Source of the DNA: Vallicoccus soli
Lineage (GTDB): Bacteria > Actinomycetota > Actinomycetes > Motilibacterales > Motilibacteraceae
Direction of reading: 5' to 3'
Length of the DNA: 64,000 bases
NCBI RefSeq assembly: GCF_003594885.1
Contig: NZ_QZEZ01000003.1
Location: forward strand, 62,001 to 126,000
Each line of letters starts with the position of its first letter. Positions within the stretch are counted from its first letter, which is position 1. The notes beneath the pieces were generated by a model. The model saw only the letters and a list, made by a program, of their open reading frames with translations, searched no databases and was not told the origin of the DNA. A program made the translations under genes and the position numbers. Below, piece after piece: positions 4,295 to 19,325 of this stretch.

Positions 4295-5422
4295 GTGACG
4301 GGACGCATCGTGCTCTTCGGCGCCACCGGCTTCACCGGCGGCCTGGTCGCCGCCGCCCTCGCGCCGCTGCGCGGGGACGCACCCCTGGTCCTCGCCGGCC
4401 GCGACCGGGCCCGCCTCGAGGCGCTCGCGTCCCGCCTGGGCGGGTCCGCCGTCGAGGTCGCCGTCGCCGACGCGACCGACGAGGCGCAGGTGGCGGGGCT
4501 GGTGGGCCGCGACGACGTGCTCGTCAGCACCGTCGGGCCGTTCGCGCGGCTGGGGCGCCCGGCGGTCGCCGCCGCCACCGGCGCCGGGGCGGCGTACCTC
4601 GACTCGACCGGCGAGCCGGCCTTCCTCGAGGAGGTCTTCCGCCGGCACGGCCCCCGCGCCGCCGCCACGGGCGCCCGGCTGCTGCCGGCGTTCGGCTACG
4701 ACTACGTCCCCGGCAACCTCGCCGCCGCGCTCGCGCTGCGCGAGGCGGGCGGGGAGGCCCGGCGGGTCGACGTCGGCTACTTCCTGCGCGGGCGCGGCGG
4801 GCTGTCCACCGGGACGCTGGCCTCGGCGGCCGGCGCGGCGCTGCAGCCCGGCCTGGCCTGGCGCACGGGCGCGCTGCGCCACGAGCGCCCGGCCGCGCGG
4901 GTGCGCTCCTTCCACCTCGGCGGCCGCGAGCGGGCCGCGGTCTCGGTCGCCGGCTCGGAGCACCTCGTGCTCCCCCGGTCGTTCCCCCAGCTGCTCGAGG
5001 TCGACGTGCTCCTCGGCTGGGCCGGCGACCTCGCCCGCCCCCTGCAGGGCGCGTCGGCGCTCGCGGGCCTGGCCGGGCGCGTCCCCGGGGTCCGCGCCGG
5101 CGCCGGCGCCCTCGCCGGGCGCCTCGCCGGGGCCCTGCCCGGCGGCACGGGCCAGGGGCCCTCCCCGCAGGCCCGCGCCCGCACCCGCTCGGTCGCCGTC
5201 GCCGAGGCGTTCACCGTCGACGACCGGCTCCTCGCGCGGGTCGTGCTGCAGGGGCCCGACCCGTACGGGCTCACCGGCGCCCTGCTCGCGCGCGGCGCGC
5301 TCGCCGCCGCGCAGGGACGGCTGCGGGGCGCGGGGGCGCTCGGGCCGGTCGACGCGCTGGGGCTCGACGGCCTGGGGGCCCTCGCCCGGGACGCGGGCCT
5401 CGTCCCGCTCGAGGAGGGCTGA
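4295..5422 (+). CDS. Saccharopine dehydrogenase-like NAD(P)-dependent oxidoreductase
   Basis: 375 residues. The N-terminus [20 protein letters not shown] is a Rossmann dinucleotide-binding loop (GATGFTG). It is followed by [15 protein letters not shown], whose Arg after the second strand suggests NADP(H) preference. [18 protein letters not shown] is typical of saccharopine-dehydrogenase-fold proteins, including the trans-acting enoyl reductases of mycobacterial lipid biosynthesis. No membrane segments are present. The substrate cannot be predicted. The spacing and promoter suggest an independent transcription unit, although the dinB stop is only eleven bases upstream. Confidence 0.8.
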
Positions 5423-15148: not shown

Positions 15149-16294
15149 ATGCGCTGGGACGCCCTGCAGCTCCACGACCCCGCCGAGGCCGGTGCCGCCG
15201 ACGGCGGAGCGGGCTCCGGCGCGCCCGGCCCCGCCGCGCCGGAGCCGCTGCCGCTGCTCCCCCGCGGGGCCGTCGCGCGGACCTTCGACACCCCGCAGTT
15301 CCGCGGCATGACGTTCTACGAGGTGCAGGCGCGCTCGGTCCTCAACCGGGTGCCCGAGGCCTCCGCGGTGCCGTTCCGCTGGACCGTCAACCCCTACCGG
15401 GGCTGCTCGCACGCCTGCGTCTACTGCTTCGCGCGCGGCACGCACGCGTACCTCGAGCTCGGCACCGGCCTCGACTTCGACCGCAAGGTCGTGGTGAAGA
15501 CCAACGCCGCGGAGGTCCTGCGGCGCGAGCTGGCCCGCCCGCGGTGGGCCCGCGAGCACGTCGCCATGGGCACCAACGTGGACTGCTACCAGCGCGCGGA
15601 GGGCCGCTACCGGCTCATGCCGGGGATCCTGCGCGCGCTCACCGACGCCCGCACCCCGTTCTCGGTGCTGACCAAGGGCACGCTGGTGCTGCGCGACCTG
15701 CCGCTGCTGCAGGAGGCGGCGCAGGTCGTGCCGGTCGCCACGAACGTCTCGGTGGGCTTCCTCGACGAGGACCTCTGGCGCCTGCTCGAGCCGGGGACGC
15801 CCAGCCCGCGCCGCCGCCTCGAGGTGTGCGCCCGCCTCAACGACGCCGGCGTCCCCTGCGGCGTGCTCATGGCCCCCGTCGTGCCGGGACTGAGCGACTC
15901 CCCCGCCGAGGTCGAGCGCACGGTGCGCGCGATCGCCGACGCCGGCGCGACCCACGTGACGCCGCTGCTGCTGCACCTGCGCCCCGGTGCCCGCGAGTGG
16001 TTCCTCGCCTGGCTCGACGCGCACCACCCCCGGCTGCGCCCCCTCTACGACCGGCTCTACGGCCGCGGGGCGTACGCGCCCCGGGCGTACCAGGACGAGG
16101 TCCGCGCCCGCGTGCTCGCCGCGGCCGAGCGGTGCGGGCTGGGTGGGGCAGGGCCCCGGCGCTCCCGGCGCCTCGGCTACGGCGTGGCGGCGCTGCCGGA
16201 CGACGCTGCCGGTCGCACCGGCGCGGACGCCGGGAGGCCCCCGGCGCCCGCTGCGGCCGCCCCGCCGGCGTACGCGCAGGACGCCCTGCTCTGA
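15149..16294 (+). CDS. Radical SAM protein, Rv2578c/SPL-like family
   Basis: 381 residues. The radical SAM cluster motif CSHACVYCFAR (CxxxCxxC) lies near residue 88, preceded by WTVNPYRG. This order is typical of the Rv2578c-type branch related to spore photoproduct lyase-like proteins. The enzyme should bind a 4Fe-4S cluster and cleave S-adenosylmethionine; the substrate is unknown. The Gly/Pro/Ala-rich N-terminal 35 residues and the C-terminal tail are probably disordered. The SOS-like box over its promoter suggests DNA-damage induction, which would fit a nucleic-acid repair or modification role. That functional link is inference. Confidence 0.88.
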   Translation: MRWDALQLHDPAEAGAADGGAGSGAPGPAAPEPLPLLPRGAVARTFDTPQFRGMTFYEVQARSVLNRVPEASAVPFRWTVNPYRGCSHACVYCFARGTHAYLELGTGLDFDRKVVVKTNAAEVLRRELARPRWAREHVAMGTNVDCYQRAEGRYRLMPGILRALTDARTPFSVLTKGTLVLRDLPLLQEAAQVVPVATNVSVGFLDEDLWRLLEPGTPSPRRRLEVCARLNDAGVPCGVLMAPVVPGLSDSPAEVERTVRAIADAGATHVTPLLLHLRPGAREWFLAWLDAHHPRLRPLYDRLYGRGAYAPRAYQDEVRARVLAAAERCGLGGAGPRRSRRLGYGVAALPDDAAGRTGADAGRPPAPAAAAPPAYAQDALL

Positions 16295-16370
16295 CCCGGC
16301 GCGCCGGACGCGACCGGTCGTGCCCCGTATGTCCGTCGCGCAAGGTCCCTGTTTCGTCCGTGGTGGACCC

Positions 16371-16400
16371 TTGACGCGGTGTGACGCGCGGTGGTGGGTT
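16371..16400 (+). promoter_or_regulatory. Sigma-70-type promoter of the glycine-riboswitch transcript
   Basis: TTGACG (16371-16376) and TGGGTT (16395-16400) are 18 bases apart. Transcription would begin near 16407, just before the first aptamer. Confidence 0.5.
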
Positions 16401-16423
16401 CGTCCCAGCCGATCGAGGAGACG

Positions 16424-16617
16424 CAGGAGAGACCCGGCCCGTCCGGCGGTGGCCACCGCCGGAGGACCGGGCGCCGAAGGAGCAACCTCCCCGGGAAACT
16501 CTCAGGCACCCAGGACTGCGTCGCCGAGGCGACTCTGGAGAGAGCGGCACGGGCCGCTCACCGAAGGGCGAAGCCGGCCCGCGCCGGCGAAGGCCTCAGG
16601 TGCCAGGACAGAGCGGG
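16424..16617 (+). ncRNA. Tandem glycine riboswitch (two gcvT-type aptamers)
   Basis: Aptamer 1 (about 16424-16519) shows GGAGAG, then GCGCCGAAGGAGCAA, then GGGAAACTCTCAGGCACC and AGGAC. Aptamer 2 (about 16531-16617) repeats the order: CTGGAGAGAGC, CACCGAAGGGCGAAGCC, GGCGAAGGCCTCAGGTGCC and AGGACAGAG. These are the conserved blocks of the glycine riboswitch, including the CTCTCAGG-type segment and the AGGAC ending, with the short linker typical of cooperative tandem aptamers. Glycine binding usually turns on downstream genes. Here the downstream gene is an M20 amidohydrolase, not gcvT/gcvP or a transporter. Confidence 0.88.
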
Positions 16618-16646
16618 GACGGCGGGCGCCCGACGCGCCCTCGGCA

Positions 16647-16700
16647 GGCACCACCGCGCGCCCGCGCCGCGACCCCTGCCACCCCTCCACCGGAGGTGCC
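16647..16700 (+). promoter_or_regulatory. Probable riboswitch expression platform masking the ribosome-binding site
   Basis: The ribosome-binding site GGAGG (16692-16696) can pair with CCTCC (16684-16688) across a 3-base loop. The overlapping GGTGCC (16695-16700) can pair with GGCACC at 16647-16652. Either pairing would hide the site, which suggests translational control. No terminator with a T-tract is seen before the gene. Confidence 0.45.
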
Positions 16701-16702
16701 AC

Positions 16703-18463
16703 GTGTGCGAGACCGACCACATCGAGGCGAGGGGCCTGAGCCGGCGCGACCTGCTCGGCCTCCTGGGCGGGGCGGGGGCGGCGCTGGCCGCCGGGCCCGC
16801 GCTGCTCGCCGACCCGGCCGCGGCCGCGGCGAGCGACCTGGCGCTGGACCCGCGCAGCGCGCCGTCGTCCAGCGGGGACTACGAGGCGCCGGCGGGCCTG
16901 GCCCTGGACTCCAAGGCCAAGGACGCGGCGCTGTCGTTCCTCGACCGGCAGAGCGGGCGCATCCTGGGGCTCAACGACCGCATCTGGGAGTACGCCGAGC
17001 CGTCGATGAAGGAGTGGAACTCCGCGCTCGCCGAGGCGACGTACCTGGAGTCGCAGGGCTTCAAGATCACGTGGGGCACGGCCGGGATGCCTACCGCCTT
17101 CGTGGCGACCTTCAGCCAGGGCACCGGCTCCCCCGTCATCGGGTTCAGCGGCGAGTACGACGCCCTGCCGGGGGTCTCGCAGGAGAAGGGCAACCCCGAG
17201 CACAACCCGCTGGTCTACGACGACGACCCGTACGCCCCCACGTACGGCTACGGCCACGGCTGCGGGCACAACTCGCTCGGCGCGGCGGCGGCCGGTGCCG
17301 CCGCCGCGGTGGCGGCCGCGATGCGCCGCCAGCGCCTCGACGGCACCCTGAAGTTCTTCGGCTCGGCCGGCGAGGAGCAGCTCGTCGGCAAGTCGGTGGC
17401 GGTCCGGGCGGGGGCGTACGACGGCCTGGACGCGTTCGTCGACTGGCACCCGGGCAGCAGCAACAGCACGAGCTGGGGCTCGAGCAACGCGATGTACAGC
17501 ACGACGTTCCACTTCCACGGCACCGACGGGCACGGCGGGTCGCCCCTCGGCGCGCGCTCCACCCAGGACGCGGTCGAGGCGATGGCGATGCTCACCGAGT
17601 ACCTGCGGGAGAGCTCGATGGCGCCGTCCGCGCGCATGCACCACGCGGTGCGGGCGACCGGCGTGCAGCCGAACGTCTACCCGACCCTGTCGAGCATCTG
17701 GTTCTACGCCCGCGAGGCCAGCCCCGAGCGCGCCAAGGTCCTCATGGACAAGATCACCCGCTGCGCGGAGGCGGCCGCGCTGGCGACCGGCACCCGCATG
17801 GAGACCAAGCTCCAGGGCGCGGTGTGGAACAAGCTCGGCAACAAGCGCGGCACCGAGCTGATGCACGCGAACATGGTGCAGATCGGCGCGCCCTCGTTCT
17901 CCGCCGCCGACCAGCGCTTCGGCCGGGCGCTGCAGCGGGCGAACGGGGCACCGGAGGACGGCTTCCCCGAGGAGATCGCCGACCTGCGCCCGCCGTCCCC
18001 GGTGTTCACCGGCGGCGGCTCGACCGACGTCGCGGACATCAGCTGGCAGGTGCCCACGATCCAGATGGGCACGGCGCACGAGCCGCCGGGGACCTTCAAC
18101 CACTCGTGGCACCGCACCGCCTGCGGCGCCGCCAGCCCCGGGCACGTGGCCACCATGGCGGCCGCGCGCTACCTCGCCGGCACCGTCGTCGACCTGCTCA
18201 CGCAGCCCGCGGTCGTGCGCGAGATGCGCGAGGAGTTCGAGCAGCGCCGGTCCCAGGTCGAGTGGCGCAGCCTGCTGCCCTCGGACTACCGGATCCCGCT
18301 GTACCAGCCGCCCGCGTGGTTCCTCGAGCGCACCGGTCAGGCCTGGCCGCCCACCGCGGAGGGGGTCGAGTGGCCGCCGCGCCGGCTGGTGCAGACCGTG
18401 CCGCGCGACGACCTCGGCCCGTCGGTGCCGCCGGAGAACCAGCCGGTGCCGCAGCTGGAGTGA
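16703..18463 (+). CDS. Tat-exported M20-family amidohydrolase, AbgB-like
   Basis: 586 residues. The twin-arginine signal SRRDLLGLLGGAGAALAAG precedes an Ala-rich cleavage region. M20 metal and catalytic motifs follow: SGEYDALPG, GHGCGHNSLG (near 184), SAGEEQLVGK with the paired Glu, VDWHPG, and GTDGHGGSP. The late NHSWHRTACGA fits the C-terminal metal His. The long insert and the order resemble aminobenzoyl-glutamate utilization protein B. Such enzymes hydrolyse amide bonds of small N-acyl amino acids, so the product here could be glutamate, glycine or another amino acid. The GTG start has GGAGG six bases away. The glycine riboswitch upstream makes its expression glycine-responsive. Exact substrate unknown. 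Confidence 0.85.
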   Translation: MCETDHIEARGLSRRDLLGLLGGAGAALAAGPALLADPAAAAASDLALDPRSAPSSSGDYEAPAGLALDSKAKDAALSFLDRQSGRILGLNDRIWEYAEPSMKEWNSALAEATYLESQGFKITWGTAGMPTAFVATFSQGTGSPVIGFSGEYDALPGVSQEKGNPEHNPLVYDDDPYAPTYGYGHGCGHNSLGAAAAGAAAAVAAAMRRQRLDGTLKFFGSAGEEQLVGKSVAVRAGAYDGLDAFVDWHPGSSNSTSWGSSNAMYSTTFHFHGTDGHGGSPLGARSTQDAVEAMAMLTEYLRESSMAPSARMHHAVRATGVQPNVYPTLSSIWFYAREASPERAKVLMDKITRCAEAAALATGTRMETKLQGAVWNKLGNKRGTELMHANMVQIGAPSFSAADQRFGRALQRANGAPEDGFPEEIADLRPPSPVFTGGGSTDVADISWQVPTIQMGTAHEPPGTFNHSWHRTACGAASPGHVATMAAARYLAGTVVDLLTQPAVVREMREEFEQRRSQVEWRSLLPSDYRIPLYQPPAWFLERTGQAWPPTAEGVEWPPRRLVQTVPRDDLGPSVPPENQPVPQLE

Positions 18464-18488
18464 GCCCCGCCCCCGCCCCCGCTCCCGC

Positions 18489-18516
18489 CCGGCCCCGGCG
18501 TGCGCGCCGGGGCCGG
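18489..18516. terminator. Bidirectional hairpin between the M20 and transglycosylase genes
   Basis: CCGGCCCCGGCG and CGCCGGGGCCGG form a perfect 12-bp stem with loop TGCG. It lies between convergent genes and has no T-tract. Confidence 0.7.
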
Positions 18517-18542
18517 CCGCGGGGTGACGTGCGGCGGGAGGG

Positions 18543-19325
18543 TCAGGCCGGCCGGTCGAGCCAGCCGTAGCCGGGCACCCAGCCGGTGACGCGCTCGACG
18601 TACGTGCGGGTCTCCTCGAAGTCGGGCACCCCGCCGGCCTCCTGCACCGCGCCGGGCCCGGCGTTGTACGCCGCGATGACCCGCTCGTCGCTGACCGGCA
18701 GGTCGAGCTGCTCGCCGATCCAGGTGAGGTACGCCGCCGCCGTCTCCACCGAGTCGGCCGGGTCGAACGGGTCGGCCTCGCCGTCGCCGTCGGCGTCGCG
18801 CCCGAAGTCGCCGAACGTCCCCGGGACGATCTGCATGAGGCCCTGCGCGCCGGCCGGGCTCACCGCGTCGGGGTCGAAGCCGGACTCCGCGCGGGCGTGG
18901 GCGGCCAGCTGCGCCGCGCTGACCGCGGGGTAGCGCTCGGCGGCGGCGCGGAAGAGGTCGGCGTACGGCGTCGTGCGCGGCGAGGACGGGCGGTAGCGCT
19001 GCTCGAGCCCGTCCAGCGCACCGGTGAGGTGCAGCACGACGGTCACCGCGGCGAGGAGCAGGCCCACGCGCAGCGCGACCCGGCCGAGCAGCCGGGCCCC
19101 GCGGCGCCCCGGTCCCGACGGTCCCCGCCGCGCGCCGCCGCCGGAGGGGCGCCGGCCCGCCGGCGGCCGGGACGACCCGGCACGGGCAGCCTGCGCCGGA
19201 CGCGCCGCGGCCCGCTGCTGGGGCCGGGCGGGGGTGCGACCGCGGGAGGGGGTGCCGGAGCGCGGGGCCCCGGGGCGGCGCTCGCCGCGGGCGCGGGGGC
19301 CGCCGGCGGTGGGTCGCGTCGTCAT
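18543..19325 (-). CDS. Membrane-anchored lytic transglycosylase (SLT domain)
   Basis: 260 residues. A basic, Pro/Arg-rich cytosolic leader of about 80 residues is followed by one membrane segment (VALRVGLLLAAVTVVLHLTG). The extracellular SLT domain has the catalytic Glu in HARAESGFDP, then GAQGLMQIVPGTF, and AYNAGPGAVQE. These are the ordered motifs of lysozyme-like lytic transglycosylases, which cut the glycan strands of peptidoglycan. DADGDGEADPFDP inside the domain looks like an acidic Ca-binding-type loop. The ATG start at 19325 agrees with the topology. The M15-like lipoprotein gene upstream on the same strand also looks like a cell-wall enzyme. Confidence 0.88.
   Translation of the reverse strand: MTTRPTAGGPRARGERRPGAPRSGTPSRGRTPARPQQRAAARPAQAARAGSSRPPAGRRPSGGGARRGPSGPGRRGARLLGRVALRVGLLLAAVTVVLHLTGALDGLEQRYRPSSPRTTPYADLFRAAAERYPAVSAAQLAAHARAESGFDPDAVSPAGAQGLMQIVPGTFGDFGRDADGDGEADPFDPADSVETAAAYLTWIGEQLDLPVSDERVIAAYNAGPGAVQEAGGVPDFEETRTYVERVTGWVPGYGWLDRPA

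Follow-up and report, generated by a model that had tools for sequence, protein, structure and literature searches.

A tandem glycine riboswitch ahead of an AbgB-type amidohydrolase gene in Vallicoccus soli, and its recurrence in a second AbgB clade

The window analysed here is a stretch of 64,000 nucleotides of the Vallicoccus soli contig NZ_QZEZ01000003.1 (assembly GCF_003594885.1; positions 62,001–126,000, forward strand), in which two adjacent glycine aptamers precede a gene for an M20 amidohydrolase related to Escherichia coli AbgB. The initial annotation of this DNA had tied glycine sensing to a hydrolase of this type, and the connection is borne out in seven leaders of genes for the window type of enzyme, which is probably exported, and in a second clade of AbgB-like enzymes with genes beside gcv (glycine cleavage) and glyA genes. 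AbgB hydrolases under glycine control would make up a small branch of the actinomycete glycine regulon, with a patchy distribution.

The tandem glycine aptamers

Two complete aptamers ahead of the gene had been proposed from the sequence, and the covariance-model search recommended at that point finds both of them above the RF00504 gathering score of 32 bits. Aptamer 1 lies at 16414–16528 on the forward strand (53.3 bits, E = 2.5e-10, cmscan) and aptamer 2 at 16525–16621 on the same strand (44.6 bits, E = 1.1e-7, whole-genome covariance search; the genome place G000:C3:78525-78621 minus 62000 gives the window positions). The cmscan of the window lists aptamer 1 only, with one lower clan match dropped for overlap, and given the four-base overlap of the two aptamers this dropped match fits aptamer 2. 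The P1a strands of aptamer 1 are at 16417–16426 and 16516–16525, and the P1b strands of aptamer 2 at 16532–16537 and 16609–16614. Aptamer 1 has the canonical core (GGAGAG, CCGAAGG and CUCUCAGG) and carries a long GC-rich hairpin insertion that is peculiar to the window.

Paired changes were counted among seven leaders (the window and the six riboswitch-bearing orthologues described below), with helices placed by hand and not through a structure search. Pairs changed on both sides are present in P1a (two), P1b (one) and P3b (two), and P2b is invariant; these paired changes indicate that the leader fold is under selection. None of the seven leaders has lost the canonical core from both of its aptamers. 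The whole-leader fold is no stabler than shuffled sequences (z = -0.46), folding energy being uninformative at such G+C content. We consider it very likely that the leader is a functional glycine switch.

The window enzyme and its orthologues

By profile and AbgB comparisons the gene at 16703–18463 (forward strand, GTG start) codes for an AbgB-family M20 amidohydrolase of 586 amino acids, and by the list of open reading frames it is a single-gene unit. A mechanical open reading frame from 16391 was rejected as the gene because it reads through the riboswitch. Of the earlier description as a Tat-exported AbgB-like M20 enzyme, the family assignment stands: the protein scores 174.7 bits against the TIGR01891 amidohydrolase model (cut-off 153.75) and 35 bits against Pfam M20 (cut-off 24.6), and it shares 31% identity with E. 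coli AbgB over 474 columns, compared with 30% to AbgA over only 249 columns. The motifs GHGCGHN (residues 184–190), EE (224–225) and WHP (248–250) are common to the window protein and AbgB, and we take these to be metal and catalytic motifs, with presumed roles for the individual residues. The best-scoring solved sequences are the Xaa-Arg dipeptidase (7yh4, 8xzc; 99.2 bits) and HmrA (3ram; 79.7 bits). The export part of the description is retained as probable, from the motif SRRDLLG read by eye at the start of the signal peptide (16739–16759, forward strand), which we take to be a Tat (twin-arginine) motif. It is followed by a hydrophobic stretch, and the RR is kept in the orthologues, so that the enzyme is probably Tat-exported. 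Wherever the start is clean, proteins of the exported clade begin with MCETD or MCDTD (window 16703–16720), ahead of the motif; conservation in front of a signal peptide is unusual.

A scan of the genome collection identifies 16 further orthologous loci at 67–77% identity. Conservation of the leader among them, which the initial annotation had suggested checking, is partial: the tandem riboswitch is present in six, namely the Micromonospora loci L006, L008, L009, L011 and L017 together with L019 (a metagenome-assembled genome labelled Streptomyces), and missing from ten. Both aptamers are readable in the sequence of all six. Within the genus Micromonospora an orthologue at 70% identity or more is found in 9 of 151 genomes, five of the nine with the riboswitch. 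Of 393 genomes sampled from the class, 12 contain the window-type gene, called at E = 1e-100 or better, and the riboswitch adjoins only the window's own. In the tree, for which L019 was cut at residue 342 and four M20D rows were left out, the five riboswitch-bearing Micromonospora genes form one group (88/88), and L020 (Micromonospora sp. U21), which is without the riboswitch, lies next to it (82/75). The tree leaves the deep forks of the exported clade without resolution and so gives no count of riboswitch gains or losses. Viral contigs contain no relative, and plasmids contain distant relatives only (below 60% identity in all 186 records).

A second AbgB clade with DUF5058 cassettes

The second setting is seen in Nocardioides insulae, in which two glycine riboswitches precede three genes: one for DUF5058 (PF16481, 195.6 bits), one for a membrane protein that matches no Pfam family and, where the contig ends, one for an AbgB-like M20 enzyme. 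The enzymes of this cassette clade are without a signal peptide, and that of genome G105 shares 45% identity with E. coli AbgB over 474 columns and 34% with the window protein. DUF5058 is found in 7 of the 393 genomes of the class sample. In G105 a tandem glycine riboswitch lies directly before DUF5058 and the third gene is AbgB-like; none of the other six loci has the riboswitch; four of them have an M20 gene of another type in third position, and in the other two the third gene was not resolved. Since DUF5058 and its partner are thus also found beside another kind of M20 amidohydrolase, without a riboswitch (L122, L123, L125 and L126), the two membrane proteins probably act on more than one amide substrate.

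The genus of G105 has an enzyme of this type, at E = 1e-80 or better, in 9 of its 198 genomes, and these nine with two further class genomes and two Nocardioides cassettes make up 13 neighbourhoods, which are related and hence not independent, and which differ in gene order. The arrangement of riboswitch, DUF5058, membrane protein and AbgB is present in eight of them (G105, G624, G634, G636, G665, G722 and the two Nocardioides), with a broken enzyme gene in G636; G696 has the DUF5058 operon without the riboswitch, and the enzyme gene stands alone in G116, G203, G635 and G712. Beyond the 13, two further paralogues in G665 (L197 and L198; 53–54%) have neither riboswitch nor cassette. Some cassette leaders show one aptamer only in the Rfam scan, yet both are visible in the sequence. 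Both are found by motif in seven of the eight leaders, the eighth (Nocardioides C1) has two Rfam matches, and GGAGAG, CCGAAGG and CUCUCAGG are present in all 16 aptamers.

In 7 of the 13 neighbourhoods the enzyme gene or cassette lies within 0.8 kilobases of gcvT-H-P or glyA-sdaA, in five arrangements, with the gcv and glyA families checked on examples. The G105 cassette is tail to tail with gcvTHP, the G116 enzyme gene and the G665 cassette are upstream of glyA, the G203 enzyme gene is divergent from gcvT, the G696 operon is upstream of gcvT, and the cassettes of G624 and G636 are divergent from glyA. One Nocardioides cassette enzyme gene converges on purU. We saw no AbgA-like or AbgT-like genes among the cassette genes that were read, no dedicated search for them having been made. 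A gene for a TetR-type regulator accompanies the DUF5058-AbgB cassette at L121, L189, L192 and L196 (family checked for G105 only).

Genes downstream of glycine riboswitches in the class

A background set of 40 loci with 43 riboswitch places, biased in that its genomes were mostly chosen for many aptamers or for DUF5058, has as first downstream gene a gcv gene at 32 places, glyA at three, sdaA at three, an amino-acid permease at three, a Gly_transporter at one and an unclear gene at one (L146). Permease, transporter, glyA, sdaA and gcv were confirmed on examples and the remaining names read from sequence. Glycine or serine genes or amino-acid transporters thus account for 42 of the 43 places, and an M20 or DUF5058 gene is first at none of the 43. 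The V. soli genome itself has a third, single RF00504 aptamer elsewhere, before gcvP (L082). For Actinobacteria, Crum et al. (PMC6944388) place 74% of glycine riboswitches with gcv and 22% with other glycine metabolism, and the words peptidase and amidohydrolase are absent from the main text as far as that was accessible. Because the riboswitches of the class sit before glycine and serine genes, we read the AbgB link as a metabolic one.

Among the less usual places are those before an amino-acid permease at L131 (CycA type), L127 and L129; downstream of the permease there is another aptamer with gcvP at L131, and a gene reading like purU at L127. At L137:519-1202 a glycine riboswitch precedes a PF03458 Gly_transporter gene, and at L146:376-2340 a glycine aptamer precedes a long unidentified protein that is not a recognised glycine gene.

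The region between the aptamers and the start codon

The end of aptamer 2 is separated from the GTG start by 81 bases, which contain the ribosome-binding site GGAGG (16692–16696, forward strand) and a conserved hairpin, GGGCGC-CCGAC-GCGCCC (16624–16640, forward strand), found by comparison of the seven leaders. The hairpin has six of six standard pairs in every leader, with two pairs changed on both sides, and is present in the minimum-energy and centroid folds. It is without a U tract, and there is no intrinsic terminator with a U tract in 16290–18600.

Masking of the ribosome-binding site by two alternative pairings had been proposed for this leader, and the comparisons do not support it. 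The pairings CCUCC/GGAGG and GGCACC/GGUGCC can be drawn in the window leader, but 160 of 200 shuffles do as well as the best duplex that the bases following aptamer 2 form with the start region, 344 of 500 shuffles are equally good when the first 25 bases after P1b are used, and the pairings are not kept in the leaders of relatives. The best duplexes in the other exported-type leaders are no better than shuffles, with the exception of L011 in one test (4 of 200), a signal that is not repeated in the first 25 bases after P1b (269 of 500). Start-region pairing after P1b stands out in the leaders of gcvT (G105) and glyA (G665), with one of 500 shuffles as good in each, and is unremarkable in those of gcvT (G407; 379 of 500) and gcvP (G394; 48 of 500) and in the eight cassette leaders (51 to 500 of 500). 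P1b and the start codon lie 92 bases apart in the window and 174–197 bases apart in the other six exported-type leaders, as compared with 65 for gcvT (G105), 56 for glyA (G665), 58 for gcvT (G407) and 173 for gcvP (G394). Because their start-region pairing and spacing are unlike those of gcvT (G105) and glyA (G665), we think that the M20 leaders use a platform other than pairing with the Shine–Dalgarno sequence, for which the hairpin is the best candidate.

Other features of the leaders are of lesser weight. The sequence TTGACG at 16371–16376 (forward strand) is a weak candidate for a -35 promoter element, and TTGAC is present at the matching place in L006, L008, L009, L011, L017 and L019; a consensus promoter scan called no promoter. 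Rfam matches to CRISPR-DR28 and MIR5534 within the leader are below their own cut-offs and were taken as chance. A short open reading frame (MVSRLIVMP or similar), a possible leader peptide, seems by eye to lie between riboswitch and gene in L006, L008, L009 and L017.

Proposed role and alternatives

We propose that the tandem glycine riboswitch in the 5' untranslated region governs a unit of one gene, that of an exported AbgB-type amidohydrolase, which would hydrolyse an amide or peptide bond outside the cytoplasmic membrane to give a product that feeds the glycine pool. The substrate would most likely be an N-acyl-glycine or a glycine dipeptide, and the freed glycine would be imported and passed to the glycine cleavage system, whose gcvP carries its own glycine aptamer in the same genome. 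In the sister clade the same reaction would take place inside the cell, after import of the conjugate by DUF5058 and its partner membrane protein. Glycine would raise expression as it does for gcv genes, acting through P1b and the hairpin that follows it and not by direct masking of the ribosome-binding site. We put the chance that the substrate of the AbgB-type enzymes yields glycine at about even, and an increase of expression with glycine is the probable direction; taken whole, with a working switch, glycine-yielding hydrolases and glycine as inducer, the account falls somewhat short of an even chance, and the direction of the response is its weakest part.

Several observations weigh against this account. 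The known AbgB acts together with AbgA on p-aminobenzoyl-glutamate, which is not a glycine conjugate. The core of aptamer 2 in the window reads GGCCUCAGG where the consensus has CUCUCAGG, and that of aptamer 1 in the Micromonospora leaders L006, L008, L009 and L017 reads CUCACAGG, a change that may alter binding in one aptamer of these four leaders, their aptamer 2 being canonical. The ten orthologues without the riboswitch count here too, as does a group at 56–58% identity in the class sample, none of whose nine members has it; L020 at about 4690–4790 resembles by eye a decayed aptamer 1, without a Rfam match. Finally, no gcv or glyA gene lies near the exported-type gene in the window or at the 16 orthologous loci, and the riboswitch is therefore the sole link to glycine in the exported clade.

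An enzyme with the same role could be under a switch of opposite sign, in which a shortage of glycine turns on the hydrolase, and the importer where there is one, for scavenging. Genes for exported hydrolases and for importers typically serve scavenging, and since the spacing and the hairpin of these leaders are unlike those of the gcvT and glyA leaders, the direction need not match that of gcv switches. Precedents exist on both sides: PMC5829553 describes a symporter gene of Streptococcus pyogenes whose glycine riboswitch represses at high glycine, and the gcv switches of Streptomyces griseus as activating expression (the latter also in a title cited by PMC5666159). The placing of the cassettes beside gcv and glyA-sdaA operons is a catabolic setting and speaks for activation, and we regard a switch turned off by glycine as unlikely, if a serious candidate.

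The main rival to the proposed role concerns folate, a shortage of which would stall glycine cleavage and GlyA, so that glycine would rise and the riboswitch would turn on an AbgB-type recovery of p-aminobenzoate from p-aminobenzoyl-glutamate, either imported by DUF5058 or cut outside the cell by the exported form. The identities to AbgB (45% for the G105 enzyme and 31% for the window protein) are in keeping with such a role, and the neighbouring gcvT-H-P, glyA and purU genes have folate-dependent products, a dependence that is equally expected of the neighbours if glycine is the product. AbgB probably requires AbgA as its partner, and the membrane partner in the cassettes is DUF5058, with no AbgA-like or AbgT-like gene seen among the genes read, none having been specifically searched for. 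Folate salvage is thus an unlikely explanation in our judgement. Common to both roles is the idea of a separate branch of the regulon, with a lone exported enzyme on one side and a DUF5058 importer with a cytoplasmic enzyme on the other, devoted to the catabolism of glycine conjugates or to folate salvage with glycine as the alarm; this we hold tentatively, at a little under an even chance.

The altered cores with GGCCUCAGG and CUCACAGG also raise the question of whether the tandem has drifted, so that glycine binding is lost in one aptamer or both, or has given way to binding of a related compound such as the substrate of the enzyme or another amino acid, and glycine riboswitch variants that reject glycine are described in PMC9481103. 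The canonical core in at least one aptamer of each of the seven leaders and in all 16 cassette aptamers, and paired changes that point to a selected fold, make such drift quite improbable. A chance or inherited juxtaposition, with the riboswitch carried before an unrelated gene, would suit the patchy spread (1 of the 12 window-type genes in the class sample), but is scarcely credible given that the leader persists, with paired changes, in three separate lineages (the window, L019 and the five Micromonospora) and that the same enzyme family bears the riboswitch in a second clade.

Relation to known systems

The riboswitch class and the enzyme family are known, and the link between them, the cassette and the layout of the leader are new as far as we have seen. 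The link had been put forward as a new one, and we found no earlier report of a glycine riboswitch with an AbgB-type hydrolase in the open-licence papers searched, the supplementary tables of which lay outside that search and may list it; nor does any paper in that literature name DUF5058. The nearest entry concerns amhX, an amidase or aminoacylase gene, which in PMC12452182 is listed among the Bacillota genes with SAM and T-box switches. Few clues to the metabolism of unknown genes are as reliable as a riboswitch, and the recurrence of this one with AbgB suggests that a branch of glycine metabolism has been overlooked. Should these hydrolases be under glycine control, the substrates of two AbgB clades and of DUF5058 are narrowed to glycine- or folate-tied compounds, which is directly testable. 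DUF5058 would gain a function if the separate-branch proposal is true, and should folate salvage be correct, an amino-acid riboswitch would be reporting on cofactor supply.

With the tandem gcv riboswitches of Actinomycetes such as Streptomyces griseus, the window leader shares two adjacent RF00504 aptamers, a single gene unit and the core motifs (with GGCCUCAGG in place of CUCUCAGG in aptamer 2). It differs in its target, an AbgB-type amidohydrolase, in the hairpin after aptamer 2, in the lack of a significant start-region pairing, and in the distance from P1b to the start, 92 bases here and 174–197 in the related leaders as against 56–65 in three of the four gcv and glyA leaders and 173 in the fourth. 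The CycA-type permease and the PF03458 Gly_transporter are likewise targets of glycine riboswitches outside gcv in the same class; these are known transporter families, whereas DUF5058 belongs to neither of them and has no assigned function. The Xaa-Arg dipeptidase and HmrA are the closest solved sequences, which does not imply common substrates, and we know of no riboswitch link for either. With E. coli AbgB and its abgAB-abgT system there is in common the family similarity with its motifs and, in the cassettes, a hydrolase accompanied by membrane proteins. In contrast to that system the genes described here have a glycine riboswitch, with no AbgA or AbgT seen (again with no dedicated search), and unlike E. 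coli AbgB the window enzyme carries a putative Tat motif and is encoded by a lone gene.

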